NCBI GenBank assembly: GCA_001003705.1
Contig: LCPQ01000013.1
Span: forward strand, 1 to 39,250
Direction: 5' to 3'
Source: Parcubacteria group bacterium GW2011_GWA2_48_9
GTDB lineage: Bacteria > Patescibacteriota > Patescibacteriia > UBA10025
DNA: 39,250 nt
This document shows positions 13,705 to 38,646 of this stretch, one piece after another (position 1 is the stretch's first letter; each line of letters starts with the position of its first letter). Below the pieces are notes generated by a model. It saw nothing but the letters and a program-made list of their open reading frames with translations. It was not told where the DNA came from and ran no database searches. The position numbers and the translations under genes were made by a program.

Positions 13705-13724
13705 GACTTATCCACAGGGAGGGC

Positions 13725-25621: not shown

Positions 25622-25754
25622 ACATTGGCTGTCTAGAGCCCTGTTAAAATTCTTTCGACAAAGTTATCCACACAGAAAAAAATGAGTACTCCATGCCCTG
25701 ACAAGAGAAAAATTCATTTTTGCTTATCTTTATTGATAACGAATCTCACAAATG

Positions 25755-30475: not shown

Positions 30476-32263
30476 ATGCTGCGAAATATTTTCAATAATC
30501 ACGAAGGAGCGGTTGCCGTCATTACCGTGTTGAGTGTATCGGTATTTGCCCTCATCACCATGACGGCCATGAGTGTGTTAGCTCTCGATGAACTCCATAT
30601 GAATACGTCCGAGATCCAATCGGAAAAAACATTTTATGCTGCCGAAGCGGGACTCAATGAAGCGGTCTACCGGCTTATCACCAACCCGGTACCTCAGTCT
30701 TTTATCATGGACTTCGAGAGTATTGAAACGAACATTTCCACCAGCGCCAACCCTACGAATCCTTATCAGCGAATAATTAGATCAAGTGCGACCGACACTA
30801 CGGGCAAAGTCAGGACCATGCAGATAGTCGCGAACACTTCTTCATTTGCAGGCGGCTTCGATTATGCTGTGCAATCAGGCCAGGGTGGGATAGAAATATT
30901 AAACAATAGTGAAGTCCTCGGTGACATATATTCAAATGGCAATATTTTTGGCGGCACAGGAGCCGCAATCCAAGCGCGAGTTGATGGAAATGTGTGGGTA
31001 GCGCGTGGTGACGCTCTTGGGAATGGCCCATCCCAAGAGGGATTTGATACTGACATAGCTGTTGGCAACAGTACCGCGAATGCGGATGCTGGTCAGAGTT
31101 TCATTCCGGCTGACAGTCGAGCTCTGAAAAGCGTTTCACTTCATTTGCGACGCACCGGAAATTTACCGGATGATGTCAATCTATTGGTTGTAAAAGACGA
31201 TGGCGGAACGCCGGGAACTGAAATACTTATGAACCAGGAAATAAAAAAGACTGATGTTCCAAACTCTTTTTCATGGCTCAACGTTGTTTTCGATATCGGC
31301 CCACTCGTTGAAGCTGGGCAGACATACTGGATTGTGCTCGATACATCGGCAGTAGACGCGGGAAAATACATTCAGTGGAAAATGAATACTAACCAGGCAA
31401 GTTACGCAGACGGTCAAGCAACGCGAAAAAATGATTCAACTGGGGTATGGACTTCCCTTAGTGGTGACTTTGCCTTTCGGACACAGCTTGGCGCTGGCGA
31501 CACATTTGTGAGACAGGTCGAAGTAGACGGAGATGTCCATGCGCATTCTGTCATCAAATCAATTATCACGAGCAAAGCATACTACCAAGTGATTGATGCA
31601 ATAACGGAAGTTAGTGGATCACCATGTCTCAACCCCAGTTGCTTCCCAGGTGAGCCCGACCCGGATCCAAAACCGTTTCCCATTCAAGACACTCATATTA
31701 CTAATTGGAAAGACGATGCGGTAGCCGGCGGGGAGCACATCGGAGACATGACGATATCTGGGAGCGTGTCACTTGGTCCTATTAAAATTTCGGGCAATCT
31801 TTTTCTTGATGGGTCATCACATATTAACGTCACGGGAAACATTTGGGTAACAGGAAACATTGTCTTCGTAAATCCCGGTTCATCCGTTTCTCTCGACGGG
31901 AGCTTCGGTCCTCTTTCGGGAGTGATAGTTGCGGATGGAAAAATTGACATTAACAACAATACGGCCATTGATGGATCCGGCGATCCGACAAGCTTCTTGC
32001 TTATTCTATCCACAAATTACTCGATTAATCCCGCAAGTCCAGCGATTAATGCTTCAAATAACTCAGATGCGGTAATCTTCTATGCTAAGAACGGCATGGT
32101 TCGTCTATATAATGGCAGCGACCTCAATGGGACATCTGGGTACTACATCAGACTCGAGGAACGCAGTACTATCACCTATGACCCGAACCTTGCGGCCTTT
32201 ACCATTCCCGCAGGTGGTGGAGAGGATGTCGGGGTAGCTCTGGGCAGTTGGGAAGAGCTCTAG
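30476..32263 (+). CDS. PilX-like minor pilin with large extracellular region
   Basis: GAVAVITVLSVSVFALITMTAMSVLALDEL...FYAAEAGLNEAVYRL N-terminus, beta-rich passenger. Confidence 0.8.
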   Translation: MLRNIFNNHEGAVAVITVLSVSVFALITMTAMSVLALDELHMNTSEIQSEKTFYAAEAGLNEAVYRLITNPVPQSFIMDFESIETNISTSANPTNPYQRIIRSSATDTTGKVRTMQIVANTSSFAGGFDYAVQSGQGGIEILNNSEVLGDIYSNGNIFGGTGAAIQARVDGNVWVARGDALGNGPSQEGFDTDIAVGNSTANADAGQSFIPADSRALKSVSLHLRRTGNLPDDVNLLVVKDDGGTPGTEILMNQEIKKTDVPNSFSWLNVVFDIGPLVEAGQTYWIVLDTSAVDAGKYIQWKMNTNQASYADGQATRKNDSTGVWTSLSGDFAFRTQLGAGDTFVRQVEVDGDVHAHSVIKSIITSKAYYQVIDAITEVSGSPCLNPSCFPGEPDPDPKPFPIQDTHITNWKDDAVAGGEHIGDMTISGSVSLGPIKISGNLFLDGSSHINVTGNIWVTGNIVFVNPGSSVSLDGSFGPLSGVIVADGKIDINNNTAIDGSGDPTSFLLILSTNYSINPASPAINASNNSDAVIFYAKNGMVRLYNGSDLNGTSGYYIRLEERSTITYDPNLAAFTIPAGGGEDVGVALGSWEEL

Positions 32264-32325
32264 AAGTTATCCACACCATTTTACTATCGAGAATCATTCC
32301 CATTTTCAGAGGATCCTTTGTCCCC

Positions 32326-32355
32326 TTGACACTGACTAGCCTTATGGGGTAAGAT
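32326..32355 (+). promoter_or_regulatory. Promoter of candidate structured RNA
   Basis: TTGACA - 18 bp - TAAGAT. Confidence 0.55.
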
Positions 32356-32361
32356 GCACCA

Positions 32362-32640
32362 ACGTCAGTAATACATAGCTCTTGCAAACAACACCAAACT
32401 CTGTTAAAACACTACATCGCACTTTGCAGCACATTAAACATCGGGGGGAGAACGCACATTCTAAAATAACGTTCGGAGGAACGTGAAACGAGCTTAGCTC
32501 GTTGAAGACCAACAAAAAGTTATAAAGGCAGCAAAAATCAGCATCAAGCAAGATATTCCTTCTACACTCGATTTTCTGAGTTCGTAGAGCGCTGATTCAT
32601 TCACAAGTTGAGTTTATAACTTTCTGTTGGTCTTTTTGTT
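32362..32640 (+). ncRNA. Candidate structured non-coding RNA (start estimated from the promoter)
   Basis: 22-position long-range stem 32505-32526/32613-32634 with one A.C mismatch, nested helices, two upstream hairpins, and a U-tract at the 3' end (TCTTTTTGTTT). Confidence 0.55.
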
Positions 32641-32695
32641 TCTTCTCGGAATTTCGAACCCTCCATGGGACGCAGGAATTCCGTCTAGAAGAAAC
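32638..32695 (+). other. Second extended hairpin of the intergenic structured region
   Basis: GTTTCTTCT+CGGAATT (32638-32653) pairs with AATTCCG+AGAAGAAAC (32677-32683, 32687-32695): 16 bp with a 3-nt bulge. Confidence 0.6.
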
Positions 32696-32818
32696 AACCC
32701 CGAGCCAACAACGGGGCGAGAGGTCACACAGTATATATGGCCAGACAAACAATCCTGAAGGAGCCCACTGGGGCGACTGAAGGATCTCACTCCACAGTGG
32801 GGTGGGTCCAGATAGCTC

Positions 32819-32846
32819 TTGACAAAAAAACCATTTAGGATATAGT
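32819..32846 (+). promoter_or_regulatory. Promoter of the giant adhesin
   Basis: TTGACA - 16 bp - TATAGT. Confidence 0.65.
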
Positions 32847-32889
32847 AATACGATTTTATCAATTCATAACTAAACATATCAACTAAGTA

Positions 32890-35800
32890 ATGAAACATCA
32901 TATGACTATCAACCTTCTCCCCAGAAAAACGTGGCGCCAACGACTCATGAAAAGCGTACACGTATTTATCATGCTCACCTTCATCGCCAACATGTCGATG
33001 GTGGGTGTTTTTATCCAGCCGAATGCCGCACAGGCAATCGACTGGCCAAGTGATAACCAGTGGGTCATTCCCGTATGTAACGACGACCCCTCGGGCGATG
33101 AAAGTCCGAACTCAGTAGATCTCAAAGCTTCAGGCGCTTCTGAATACGGCGCGGCATATTTTATAGATGCAGACAACCTATATCTTCGTGAACGCGTAGA
33201 TGGAAATCCGAAAGACAGTAACAGTTTCCGTGAATACGCGTGGGTATTCATGATCCAGAAAGACATCTCTACGACTAACTACGATTATTTAGTCTCATTG
33301 CGCGGGAGTGGCAATGGAGAGAATGTAGAGCTGTGGGAGAATACTACGAAGAACGGCCCGATAGACTGGAGCCCCATATTCAATGACCCCGCAGAAACAC
33401 TTTTGCAATCATATTCCACGTCCACAAATGCGCGCTCAACCACTGTAGGGAGCGACTACTACGTAGACTGGAAAATACCAATGTCCCAACTGACGTCGCG
33501 TGGAGTGAATCTGTTAAACTCTGGCTTGTACTTCGCGACTTCAACAAATGCGAATAACTACAATAAGGACCACCTGAATTGCTATAATGCACCTGACATC
33601 CAAATCCAAAAGTTGATACAGAAAAATCATGCGGGAAGCACTTTCCAGGATGGTCGAACTGCCAGTGTCGAAGCGGAACGCGGCGATACACTGACATACT
33701 CAGTGAGAGTAACTAACAATGGCGGACCGGCTACAAACGAAACATTCGTTGATGAGCTTGGTTTCGGCAATGCAGCTGATGGCAATCAAAACGTGAACCC
33801 CACCAGCCAATACAGCAACTGGACAAGCGTGTTGAATCTCAATACCGATAGTAACGCCAACTCATTCACTGGTGCATGGGGTAACGGTTCCTCTGACGGA
33901 CAAGTGAATGATACGCTTACGCTCAATCTCGCACTTCTGTCAGGCGGCGGTGCATCTGAAAGTTTCAGTTTTGATACAGTCATACGCAATGATCTGACTT
34001 CCCCGAGTACGCTGCTCGAGAATATGGCAAAAGTACAGAGCAACAGCCGCCGATCTGATACAGACATCGAGGTTACATACAATGTTACTAATCCCCCGCT
34101 CGGCCAAGCCTGCGGTCTCGACATTGCCCTCGTTATAGACAGCTCGGGATCGATCGACAGTACCGAGCTCACTCAAATGAAGAATGCGTTCAAAGGATTT
34201 GTTGACGCGTTTCTTCCGGGTACTCCGACACAGTTCAGCGTCACGGAGTTTGATTCTGTCGCTTCGGTGGAACTAGCATTCTCTGGAAATGCAACAACTA
34301 TTAAAAACACGATAGGCAATGCTGTGAGCGGCGGCACAACCAACTGGGATGACGCGCTGGCAAAAGCGGCATCAACTTTTGATCCCCGTCCCGCGAAACC
34401 AAACCTCGTTGTATTTGCCTCAGATGGAAACGCCAATACATGGGGAAACCCAGGAAATTACGACGGTGAAACAGCTGCGATGCCTCCGGCCATTGAAGAA
34501 GCTAATGCTATCAAAGCAGCTGGCACCCGAATCATAGCTCTCGGCATCGGTGATGACCTGGATGTAGAAAATTTGAAAGCGATTTCCGGCTCGAACGTCG
34601 CGCCTCCTGCAACAGTTGACGAAACTGCGGATGTTATCCTTGCAGATTTCGATACACTTGCAGCTGCACTCTCCGATCTCGCAAATGAGCTTTGTGGCGG
34701 TAAAATTCTGGTTCAAAAACAGCTCGACACTGATGGTGACGGCGATATCGACCTTGACGGCTCTCAGCCGAATATTGCACTGGAAGGATGGAACTTTGAT
34801 GTTAACGGCTCTCCCTCAAATCCATTGTTCCAATCCACCACGGACACCGGTGCTCTGACTTTTGATGTAGAAAACGGTACATATAGCGTGGCTGAACTCA
34901 ATCAGAAGCCAAACACACATATCGTAAACGGATCATGCGTCAACGGTGTGCAGCAAGTAGGAACCTTCGATCTCGGCACCAAAACGATATCGGGCCTCAC
35001 GATGGGTACTGATGAAACCATTAGTTGTACGTTCGTGAATAGCATTGACGTCGGTTCGTTGCAAGTGACGAAAGTCGTCGATGCAGGAAATCTGACGCCC
35101 GACCAATGGAGTTTCACAATAAACGGTTATGGAACGAAGACGCCGGCACCTGGAACTGACTATGTCGTATTCAATAATCTTCCGACTGGTTCATACACAG
35201 TGACCGAAAGCGACGAAACTGGATACCATCAGGTTTCTTCGACATGTACTGACGTTGCCGTCGCTAACGACCAACAGGCAACATGTGTGTTTCACAATGC
35301 AGTTGACACGGGTTCACTGAAAGTAATCAAGTATGTCGATACAGGTGACGCGACTCCTGACATGTGGGACTTCACCACCAACAACACGACACTCTCCCCT
35401 GCACAAGGTGAGAGCTACGTCGTATTCAATAACTTACTTCCTGGAAATTATTCGGTAACAGAGAGCAATCTCACCGACTACCACCAAGTCTCAACCACAT
35501 GCACAAATGCCGCAGTGGTAGGTGGACAAGAAACGGTGTGCGAATTCCACAATGCACATGACACGGGATCCGTTACGGTAAACAAGAAAGTGGACACTGA
35601 CGGCGATGGCGACATCGACCTCGTGAACCCACAGGGCTGGACATATGACATGAACGGATTCAACCAGAACTTCGTGATGGGTTCCTCACAGGTAGTCCTG
35701 ACGGGCGCCCACACAATCTCTGAAGACCAGCAGGCCGGCTACCACGTTGTCGGTTGGACGTGTAACAATGGCCAGCAAGGCGCAGGCACTTCAATACAAG

Positions 35801-38646
35801 CAAATGTGACGACCAATGGGCTCGTTTGTGAGTTCAGAAACGTTCGCGACACTGGCTCCCTCACCGTTATCAAACATGTTGAGGGCGGCGATTTGCTCGC
35901 TTCCGACTGGACCATGCATATCAAACAGGGTGATAACGAAGTCGCTTCGTTCCCTGGCAACGAGAGCGGAGTACTCACAGCTCTTCCAACGGGCGACTAC
36001 AAGGTAGTCGAAACTGGTGACATGACCAACTATGGCTATGTTTACCAGGGCGACTGCGACGTTGATGGTAATATTTCAATCGGTTACGGCGAGAGCAAGA
36101 CGTGCACGATCTTCAACTTCCGCTACACAGGGGATATCACAGTCAATAAATTCGTCCAATACCCAGATGGTCAACCCGTACAGAACCCCGCTGACTGGTC
36201 ATGGGACATCAACGGTGGATCCGCGCTTCCGGGCGGGCAAACAGAAGAAATCGATATCAATGTCCTCTACACCATAGCGGAAGACACTACACATTATCCT
36301 GCCGACAATTTCACCACGACGTGGGTCTGTTACAACGGAGATGAGCTCGTCGCCCAGGGCGCGGGAACATCATTCGACGTAACACTTACTCACGCCGAAG
36401 AATCGCTCGTTTGCACATTTACAAACGTGCGCGACACGACCCGCGTTATTTTTGATAAAGTGGTTATAGGTGGCGACCCTGGCACTGAAGACGACTGGAG
36501 TTTCACCATTGGTGGCGTTCCCGGCAGTTTCGGCGACGGTGATGCTGTTACCCTGCTTACAAATGAAACGTATGACGTGACTGAATCGTCCTCATACGAC
36601 AATCTCTACACGCTTACCGGTGCTTCCGGAGTATGCTCACTGGTTAATGGACAGATTGTGATGAACACGGGCGCGCAAGGCGGAACATGCGTTGTAGAAA
36701 ACACGCGCGACACCGGCACCATCGACGGCACCAAGTTCAACGACACTAATGGTGACGGCACATGGGATGCGGGAGAACCTGGCGTTCCTGGAGTAACTAT
36801 CAATTTAAGCAACGGCTGGACAACCAGCACTGATGGTAATGGCAACTACGTATTCAATGACGTTCCGACGGGCACATACTCCGCCAGTGAAGTTGTTCCC
36901 GCCGACTGGACGAATACGACCCCCAACCCCGTCAACAACGTAGTTGTGGTGGACGGACAAACAACGACGGCCAATTTCGGCAACTTCGAATACGCCACCG
37001 TCACTGTCTGCAAATATATTGATGTCAACGGCGATGGCGCCATTGACGGCGACCCGCTCTACACCGCCGACGGCGGATGGAGAGTGCGCGTACACGGCGT
37101 ACCGCAATACACCGACGACGGCTGCGCTACCTTCACAAATATCGGTCCTGGAACTTTCCAAATTGATGAAGAACAGAAGGACGGCTGGTCACAGACCATG
37201 CCGGGAAGTGGAGTCTACTTTTACACATCCGTCTCCGGTGATGAAGTGACATACGACTTCGCGAACTTCCAACTCGGAAAAATCTCGGGCTACAAGTTTA
37301 ACGACCTGGATGGCAACGGCACATGGGATAATGGCGAACCTCCTATCCAAAACTGGCAGATGAATCTCACTGGCCAGCACAGTGCCTTCGTGTACACTGA
37401 TGTAAACGGTTACTACGAATTTACCGGTCTCGAGGCTGGAACCTTCGCTGTCGCTGAAGAGAACGTTGCCGGATGGACCCGCACGACATCCCCTGCCTCA
37501 TACGATGTCAATATCGTGTCAGGTACCGTCTCTGAAAACAGCACATTTGGGAACTTCGAGAATATCGACGTTACAGTGTGCAAGTACATCGACGTAAACG
37601 GCGACGGCTTCCTGACCGATGAACCGCCATATGAGGATGGTTGGAATGTAAACCTCAATGATGATCAGCGAGTGACTAGCGAAAATGGCTGCGTCACTTA
37701 CGCAAACGTTGGACCAGGAAATTACGACATCACTGAAAACACTAACAGCGACTGGATCCAAACCTACCCTGCTGAAGGAAGCTACAATTTCAGCGCTGCT
37801 TCAGGACAGGATGAAACGTTCAACTTCGGCAACTTCAAGCTCGGTTCAATCTACGGCTACAAACTCAATGCGCAAGAAAACCCCCTCAGCGACTGGAAGA
37901 TCTGCCTTTCCGGCGGTTCCATCGATGAGGAAGGAGAGGATGTGGACTTCGGAGTGGATTGCCACATCGACTACACTGATGAAAACGGCTACTACGAATT
38001 CGATGGCCTGACGGCTGGCGAGTATTCAGTAGCCGAAAAACTCCAATACGGCTGGACAGCCATTGATCCTGCATCAGGTGAATACACTGGCATCGGCATT
38101 ACCTCAGGAGCCGATGAACAACGCGACTTCATGAACCAGTTGAATGAATTTGATCTAATAATCGATAAATCTGCTGACGAAACAGTCCTGGCGGGTGACC
38201 AGCTCACCTATACGCTCGACTGGAGCGTCACGGGCAATACTGACGTATCGAACGTCATGATTACCGATGAGCTCCCTGCCGACACCACGTTCGTCTCCGC
38301 TGACAACGGCGGGACCTACGACAGTGGGACCAATACGGTTAGCTGGGATCTCGGCATGAAGACGCCTGATGCCAATGGAACCGTCTCATTCATCGTCGCA
38401 ATCGACTCACCGCTCTACAACGGCACCGAAATTGAAAACGAAGCTGAAATCTGCGGTGAGGGCGAACTCGTCGTCGCTGCGGAAGCTGAAGAAGAGCCCA
38501 CCGAGAAATGTGATGACGATTCAACAACGACGGAAGTCGAATCTGACTTCACTGTGGATATCGAAAAGACTGGTCCTGAAACAGCAGAAGCAGGAGTAGA
38601 AGGAGCAGAACAACAAGCTGCTTTACTATCTTTAAGACATCTATAA
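32890..38646 (+). CDS. Giant secreted surface protein: signal peptide, DUF11-like, VWA, CnaB/SpaA-like and SdrD-B-like repeats; C-terminus probably truncated or fused at a junction
   Basis: Signal peptide ending NAAQA; DIALVIDSSGSID MIDAS; repeated DTGSL.V.K..D / NNLPTGSYTVTES; repeated GYKFNDLDGNGTWDNGEPP; DxDGDGDID loops; terminal DUF11-like segments. Confidence 0.85.
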   Translation: MKHHMTINLLPRKTWRQRLMKSVHVFIMLTFIANMSMVGVFIQPNAAQAIDWPSDNQWVIPVCNDDPSGDESPNSVDLKASGASEYGAAYFIDADNLYLRERVDGNPKDSNSFREYAWVFMIQKDISTTNYDYLVSLRGSGNGENVELWENTTKNGPIDWSPIFNDPAETLLQSYSTSTNARSTTVGSDYYVDWKIPMSQLTSRGVNLLNSGLYFATSTNANNYNKDHLNCYNAPDIQIQKLIQKNHAGSTFQDGRTASVEAERGDTLTYSVRVTNNGGPATNETFVDELGFGNAADGNQNVNPTSQYSNWTSVLNLNTDSNANSFTGAWGNGSSDGQVNDTLTLNLALLSGGGASESFSFDTVIRNDLTSPSTLLENMAKVQSNSRRSDTDIEVTYNVTNPPLGQACGLDIALVIDSSGSIDSTELTQMKNAFKGFVDAFLPGTPTQFSVTEFDSVASVELAFSGNATTIKNTIGNAVSGGTTNWDDALAKAASTFDPRPAKPNLVVFASDGNANTWGNPGNYDGETAAMPPAIEEANAIKAAGTRIIALGIGDDLDVENLKAISGSNVAPPATVDETADVILADFDTLAAALSDLANELCGGKILVQKQLDTDGDGDIDLDGSQPNIALEGWNFDVNGSPSNPLFQSTTDTGALTFDVENGTYSVAELNQKPNTHIVNGSCVNGVQQVGTFDLGTKTISGLTMGTDETISCTFVNSIDVGSLQVTKVVDAGNLTPDQWSFTINGYGTKTPAPGTDYVVFNNLPTGSYTVTESDETGYHQVSSTCTDVAVANDQQATCVFHNAVDTGSLKVIKYVDTGDATPDMWDFTTNNTTLSPAQGESYVVFNNLLPGNYSVTESNLTDYHQVSTTCTNAAVVGGQETVCEFHNAHDTGSVTVNKKVDTDGDGDIDLVNPQGWTYDMNGFNQNFVMGSSQVVLTGAHTISEDQQAGYHVVGWTCNNGQQGAGTSIQANVTTNGLVCEFRNVRDTGSLTVIKHVEGGDLLASDWTMHIKQGDNEVASFPGNESGVLTALPTGDYKVVETGDMTNYGYVYQGDCDVDGNISIGYGESKTCTIFNFRYTGDITVNKFVQYPDGQPVQNPADWSWDINGGSALPGGQTEEIDINVLYTIAEDTTHYPADNFTTTWVCYNGDELVAQGAGTSFDVTLTHAEESLVCTFTNVRDTTRVIFDKVVIGGDPGTEDDWSFTIGGVPGSFGDGDAVTLLTNETYDVTESSSYDNLYTLTGASGVCSLVNGQIVMNTGAQGGTCVVENTRDTGTIDGTKFNDTNGDGTWDAGEPGVPGVTINLSNGWTTSTDGNGNYVFNDVPTGTYSASEVVPADWTNTTPNPVNNVVVVDGQTTTANFGNFEYATVTVCKYIDVNGDGAIDGDPLYTADGGWRVRVHGVPQYTDDGCATFTNIGPGTFQIDEEQKDGWSQTMPGSGVYFYTSVSGDEVTYDFANFQLGKISGYKFNDLDGNGTWDNGEPPIQNWQMNLTGQHSAFVYTDVNGYYEFTGLEAGTFAVAEENVAGWTRTTSPASYDVNIVSGTVSENSTFGNFENIDVTVCKYIDVNGDGFLTDEPPYEDGWNVNLNDDQRVTSENGCVTYANVGPGNYDITENTNSDWIQTYPAEGSYNFSAASGQDETFNFGNFKLGSIYGYKLNAQENPLSDWKICLSGGSIDEEGEDVDFGVDCHIDYTDENGYYEFDGLTAGEYSVAEKLQYGWTAIDPASGEYTGIGITSGADEQRDFMNQLNEFDLIIDKSADETVLAGDQLTYTLDWSVTGNTDVSNVMITDELPADTTFVSADNGGTYDSGTNTVSWDLGMKTPDANGTVSFIVAIDSPLYNGTEIENEAEICGEGELVVAAEAEEEPTEKCDDDSTTTEVESDFTVDIEKTGPETAEAGVEGAEQQAALLSLRHL

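Follow-up and report, generated by a model that had tools for sequence, protein, structure and literature searches.

The boxA element, at which NusB-S10 acts in antitermination (published consensus GYTCTTTAANA, PMC5725501), is known from the leaders of rRNA operons, of suhB and of CRISPR arrays (PMC5725501, PMC7862264). In E. coli suhB it lies beside the Shine-Dalgarno site (PMC5725501). In the LoaP/dfn system of Bacillus velezensis, a leader hairpin followed by an intrinsic terminator precedes a very long transcription unit. The dfn hairpin is of the UNCG type and is bound by a NusG paralogue, and the readthrough depends on a protein factor (PMC12691694). Attenuator riboswitches and T-boxes, as described in Rfam, are likewise 5′ leaders that end in a hairpin and a U-tract.

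The leader described here precedes the gene of a giant surface protein (adhesin) in a small-genome member of the Patescibacteria. It resembles the boxA and lambda nut systems (NusB-S10) in that a linear motif loosely like GYTCTTT lies between the promoter and the putative terminator, the last copy being followed by a small hairpin and then by that terminator, and in that NusB is encoded. It differs from them in that it has one to five copies of a less strict form where they have a single copy, and in that it serves a single surface-protein gene. In comparison to lambda, its hairpin has a GGAG loop and not the boxB loop, and no N-like protein was identified. As in the CRISPR arrays and suhB, the boxA-like motif belongs to a non-rRNA leader, that of a long or regulated transcript; their boxA, however, is a single site without a conserved structured terminator (PMC7862264, PMC5725501). 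The likeness to LoaP/dfn (PMC12691694) would extend to the dependence on a protein factor, whereas dfn contains no boxA array. Contrary to riboswitches and T-boxes, neither an antiterminator alternative nor an Rfam match was found for the adhesin leader.

The window, i.e. the whole stretch of 39,250 nt that was analysed, is derived from Parcubacteria group bacterium GW2011_GWA2_48_9 (GTDB lineage Bacteria; Patescibacteriota; Patescibacteriia; UBA10025; assembly GCA_001003705.1, contig LCPQ01000013.1, positions 1-39,250, forward strand). The element is located in a 626-nt gap (32264-32889) between the pilus operon, which precedes it, and the 5.7-kb adhesin gene. The conserved start of the adhesin is the ATG at 32902, 12 nt past the first in-frame ATG (32890), and its domains suggest that the protein may play a role in host attachment. 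The original prediction had described the gap as lacking a convincing ORF and as carrying a set of nested and upstream stems, including a long one with 21 of 22 positions paired around one A.C mismatch, and two promoter-like sites (TTGACA-18-TAAGAT upstream and a second one before the adhesin). All of these were found as described. The features are as follows.

32267-32275, + strand: DnaA-box-like TTATCCACA upstream of the leader promoter (exact TTATCCACA or TGTGGATAA at most 200 nt upstream in 14 of 16 loci)
32326-32355, + strand: leader promoter TTGACA-18-TAAGAT (10/12 match)
32378-32384, + strand: boxA-like GCTCTTG, weak (motif scan, sequence)
32419-32425, + strand: boxA-like GCACTTT (motif scan, sequence)
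32429-32435, + strand: boxA-like GCACATT (motif scan; repeat D7)
32454-32460, + strand: boxA-like GCACATT, the last before the GGAG hairpin (motif scan; repeat D7)
32469-32484, + strand: hairpin ACGTTC-GGAG-GAACGT with a GGAG loop (fold; compensatory third pair within the order)
32487-32503, + strand: hairpin AACGAGC-TTA-GCTCGTT, specific to this genome and absent from relatives
32505-32526, + strand: 5′ arm of the long stem P1 (inverted repeat; 22 pairs, covariation)
32536-32597, + strand: inner stem AATCAGC/GCTGATT (32536-32542/32591-32597), kept in five of six order genomes and variable outside the order
32613-32634, + strand: 3′ arm of P1 (inverted repeat and covariation)
32633-32637, + strand: U-tract after P1 (U-rich run in all 16 homologues)
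32636-32697, + strand: accessory hairpin TTGTTTCTTCT/AGAAGAAACAA, beginning at the U-tract (repeat and fold; analogous stems by eye in G001, G004 and G039)
32819-32846, + strand: second promoter-like site TTGACA-16-TATAGT (11/12 match)
32902-38646, + strand: giant surface protein gene, preceded by the leader (VWA, SpaA/prealbumin-like, SdrD_B and DUF11 domains; N-terminus related to surface proteins of other genomes)

The two arms of P1 (22 nt each) are 95% complementary and separated by 86 nt. Inside, the inner stem encloses two hairpins, a small one at 32543-32554 (ATC-AAGCAA-GAT) and a variable apical one at 32562-32587. The region 32355-32645 folds at -70.3 kcal/mol, compared to -55.3 ± 4.6 kcal/mol in shuffles (z -3.3; 0 of 200 shuffles), the whole gap reaches z -5.9, and the P1 element alone gives z -3.0 to -10.0 across the 16 homologues. 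As these energies lie below those of the shuffles, the structure exceeds what chance would give. A second accessory hairpin after P1, a REP-like AATCCTG...GAAGGATCTC palindrome, was observed at 32748-32810 of the window; both accessory hairpins seem to be present in four of the 16 loci (the window, L003, L023 and L032).

In a DNA search of 59 genomes, matches were obtained in the window's own genome and in four others, all from the same order, and these fall precisely over the long stem (roughly 32500-32644). A first covariance model, built from three relatives with the window and G005 left out, recovered both of these as well as members outside the order. With a ten-sequence model, the set grew to 16 genomes from six families of one class. 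Each of the 16 elements is followed by an ORF whose product, a large surface protein, begins with a related N-terminus (in the outer families of the type K.(V)WKTLN.VVG..TILN.SMVG). The locus of G039 was found through its protein and matched by the RNA model only afterwards, so that it serves as an independent check. No true match was found in 388 other genomes sampled from the whole phylum, and the element thus looks confined to part of one class. Two further model matches, in G236 (E 0.0026) and in G718 (E 5e-4), were judged false on closer inspection. A genome-wide scan for the inner-stem and 3′-arm pattern yielded three order genomes (L007, L009, L012); pattern matches in other phyla (L008, L010, L011) were taken as chance, model R1 giving at most one weak match there (E 0.27). 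In other families, some relatives of the surface protein have no recognisable P1, and neither do the second copies in G068, G098, G144 and G212. The leader therefore marks particular genes and not the whole protein family.

The common layout consists of TTATCCACA, the promoter, a leader that measures 82-185 nt and contains the GCWCNTT motifs, GGAGG after the last of these, P1 with its U-tract, a gap of 42-304 nt and the start codon. Relatives share only P1 and the U-tract, to which most genomes add the GGAG hairpin. The third pair of this hairpin is G-C, T-A or A-T across the order genomes, and the hairpin is weaker or absent outside the order. The original prediction had counted the nested and upstream stems as parts of the RNA, and conservation is seen for the parts just named, whereas the inner stem is conserved mainly within the order and AACGAGC/GCTCGTT occurs in this genome only.

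The covariation analysis and the Rfam search that had been suggested along with the original prediction were both carried out. In the 16-sequence alignment, 13 of the 22 P1 pairs change on both sides, and the ten-sequence alignment gives the same picture. Standard pairs occupy 90.9% of the P1 cells, compared to 80.6 ± 1.1% after shuffling, and none of the shuffles reached any observed measure; these shuffle counts are not probabilities, as relatedness is unmodelled in them. A control in which the partners are shifted by 1-3 columns does preserve relatedness, and pairing drops far lower there, to 37-56%. The lower stem of most homologues contains one non-standard pair, mostly A.C (in the window 32515 opposite 32624), which occupies either of two positions that differ between clades (columns 14-186 or 17-183). 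Rfam gave no match in the window or in eight related loci, and none even at E<=5 in 32200-32950; the 6S RNA model found nothing in this genome. The locus had been put forward as a candidate undescribed structured RNA, not recognised as RNase P, tmRNA, 6S or SRP RNA, which agrees with the 16 homologues, the covariation far above both controls and the Rfam scans, the relaxed threshold included. It is practically certain that the element is a real conserved structured RNA. A literature search found nothing relevant that links boxA to the Candidate Phyla Radiation or describes Patescibacteria RNA families by covariance model.

A promoter-like site TTGAC[AG]-N16-18-[TC]ANNNT precedes the element in all 16 loci, and its -10 is exactly TAAGAT in seven genomes (the six order genomes and G039). 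The TTATCCACA site is found 45-176 nt upstream of the promoter in either orientation in 14 of the 16 loci, although a count in nine genomes gave only 8-35 copies of it in each. This placement suggests that DnaA or a similar protein may act at the leader promoter. Two further copies are situated between main ORFs of the window (13708-13716 and 25664-25672), the latter upstream of the pilus operon.

The downstream gene is of the same type in all loci, the nearest upstream gene varies, and the distance from the U-tract to the start codon (42-304 nt) holds no sigma-70-like site of at least 9/12 in 13 of the 16 loci. For these reasons the element is read as the leader of the surface-protein mRNA, and it very probably acts in cis on this gene. 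The original prediction had favoured a discrete RNA set apart from the adhesin by a second promoter. Such an independent small RNA would measure about 280 nt, be bounded by a promoter and a terminator of its own and act in trans or on the adhesin mRNA, while the adhesin would be expressed from its own promoter. The conserved promoter and the U-tract do bound a discrete, well-folded unit, and the second promoter is indeed present after P1 in the window, with an 11/12 match. The window is an outlier in this respect, as none of the other 15 loci has an equivalent of equal strength. The shortest gap measures only 42 nt, and the element is found only before this gene type. It stays with the gene even where the upstream neighbour differs; of an RNA that acts in trans, one would expect separation from the gene in some lineages. 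The free-standing RNA is therefore considered unlikely. Leader peptides or upstream ORFs were considered too, as GGAGG with a start codon can be seen by eye in some leaders; they were rejected because starts and frames are not conserved.

Between the promoter and the stem, the motif GCWCNTT, a form chosen after inspecting the leaders and less strict than boxA (T or A at the third base, any base at the fifth), occurs 38 times in sense and twice in antisense orientation, compared to 1.6 ± 1.2 in shuffles (maximum 6 among 500). It is present in all 16 leaders, on the transcribed strand and between promoter and putative terminator, at a density of 18.2 per kb versus 0.36 per kb per strand outside the leader in the same loci (about 50-fold). 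From the last copy to the element there are 20-38 nt in 13 of the 16 loci and no more than 49 nt in 15; this copy commonly follows the preceding one at about 20-27 nt, and GGAGG usually comes after it. The strict form [CT]GCTCTT occurs at only five sites in three genomes (0.36 expected), and in the fold prediction the motifs are unpaired to the same degree as the remaining leader (0.55 vs 0.55). NusB is encoded in all 16 genomes (PF01029 over cut-off). Eight rRNA leaders were examined as well: boxA-like CGCTCTTTACA (G000) and AGCTCTTTACA (G001) occur about 130 nt upstream of 16S (L057 and L055, respectively), and no sense-strand boxA of this form was found in the other six. Several rRNA promoters have a TAAGA-type -10, as does the adhesin leader promoter. 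Upstream of the rRNA promoter, a conserved short unit with its own TTGACA promoter was observed in L052, L054 and L056 (with a similar start in L058). It comprises GTCGAAA...GCTAAGTTAACA...CGCCTAGCG and a GC-rich stem with a U-tract, has no Rfam match at gathering score and is possibly a second undescribed small RNA.

As an intrinsic terminator requires, a stable P1 is followed directly by a U-rich run in 16 of 16 homologues, and P1 is probably such a terminator, judging from this arrangement. The terminator scanner was silent at P1, because it accepts loops of 3-8 nt only and the P1 loop is too long for this limit. P1 is more strongly conserved in sequence than would be necessary for a plain terminator, which counts against a gate. 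Alternatively, the leader could act after transcription, with P1 serving as an RNase III processing site or as a 5′ structure for stabilisation or translation control; this includes boxA-like/GGAGG modules that would recruit 30S or NusB-S10 for translation control, as at E. coli suhB, and the two are judged jointly. The long stem with its conserved sequence and usually one non-standard pair would fit such a role, as would the GGAGG adjoining the boxA-like motifs, the surface gene that mostly lacks a Shine-Dalgarno site of its own, and the suhB precedent (PMC5725501). The U-tract right after P1 in every homologue, however, fits termination, and GGAGG is far upstream of the start codon with P1 in between. 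Taken jointly, post-transcriptional roles appear quite improbable.

Pairing between the 5′ arm of P1 and the upstream leader is no better than in shuffles (mean z +0.28). This speaks against a ligand-sensing riboswitch or a T-box-like attenuator, in which terminator and antiterminator would be mutually exclusive. The three-way-junction-like interior with its conserved AAGYAA loop in three order genomes is reminiscent of such RNAs, but the interior is not conserved outside the order and has no Rfam match, and this type of switch is very unlikely. That P1 merely terminates the upstream pilus operon is scarcely credible: the element does come after that operon in the window, but in every locus P1 is separated from the upstream gene by a promoter, and the reading is already contradicted by the nearest upstream ORF running in the opposite direction in several genomes (e.g. 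G027, G098, G163, G212). A DNA-level inverted repeat, i.e. an invertible switch or mobile element, would match the 22-nt repeat between two surface-structure loci, but can practically be dismissed given the constant interior orientation in relatives, the compensatory changes within the arms and the lack of extra copies in the genome.

As no alternative RNA fold was found, a factor would have to prevent termination at P1, and since the RNA offers no antiterminator of its own, a boxA-like action is the best single idea for how the gate could be opened. Against this idea count the loose motif and its choice after inspection, the rarity of the strict form, the six rRNA leaders in which it was not found and the motifs being no more unpaired than their surroundings. 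In addition, the complex formed on boxA alone in E. coli mainly counters Rho and not intrinsic terminators. We give the opening of the gate by a Nus-type complex on the motif array somewhat less than an even chance.

The proposed mechanism would proceed as follows. Transcription would start about 7 nt after TAAGAT (near 32362), and the polymerase would first produce a leader with several GCWCNTT motifs and GGAGG, followed by P1 and the U-tract. These would halt most polymerases, and the product would be an RNA some 280 nt long. On the array, a complex of the Nus type (NusB-S10 together with NusA/NusG) may assemble, perhaps along with another factor on the GGAG hairpin, and a polymerase carrying the complex would then read through P1 into the adhesin gene. 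The element would accordingly represent a terminator-gated, cis-acting 5′ leader (attenuator) of the giant adhesin mRNA, opened by a Nus-type antitermination complex, and the chances of this overall reading are evenly balanced. The conserved promoter, the motif array, the covarying P1, its fixed position before the gene and the lack of a competing antiterminator pairing are observed; termination at P1, binding of NusB-S10 to the motifs and regulated readthrough are what we infer. In the window itself, the strong second promoter downstream of P1 counts against a gate.

In three genomes of one family (G068, L040; G144, L025; G198, L022), a promoter-like TTGAC[AT]-N17-TANGNT is found inside the P1 loop. 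A transcript from this site would escape the terminator because the 5′ arm of P1 would be missing, which is compatible with a gate.

Gene regulation in the Patescibacteria is almost unexplored, as few of them can be cultured, and a conserved leader RNA tied to one giant surface protein offers a control point, accessible to experiment, of what may be host attachment. Should the boxA part prove wrong, the element still constitutes a new covarying RNA family, absent from Rfam. It is quite possible, if less likely than not, that a boxA-like array loads a Nus complex to open a dedicated conserved terminator, which would define a new class of processive-antitermination leader that employs the rRNA-operon machinery for a surface protein. 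If the array is indeed a boxA system, antitermination by Nus factors, so far associated with the leaders of rRNA, phages and CRISPR arrays, would also include genes for surface proteins and reach into a deep bacterial branch.
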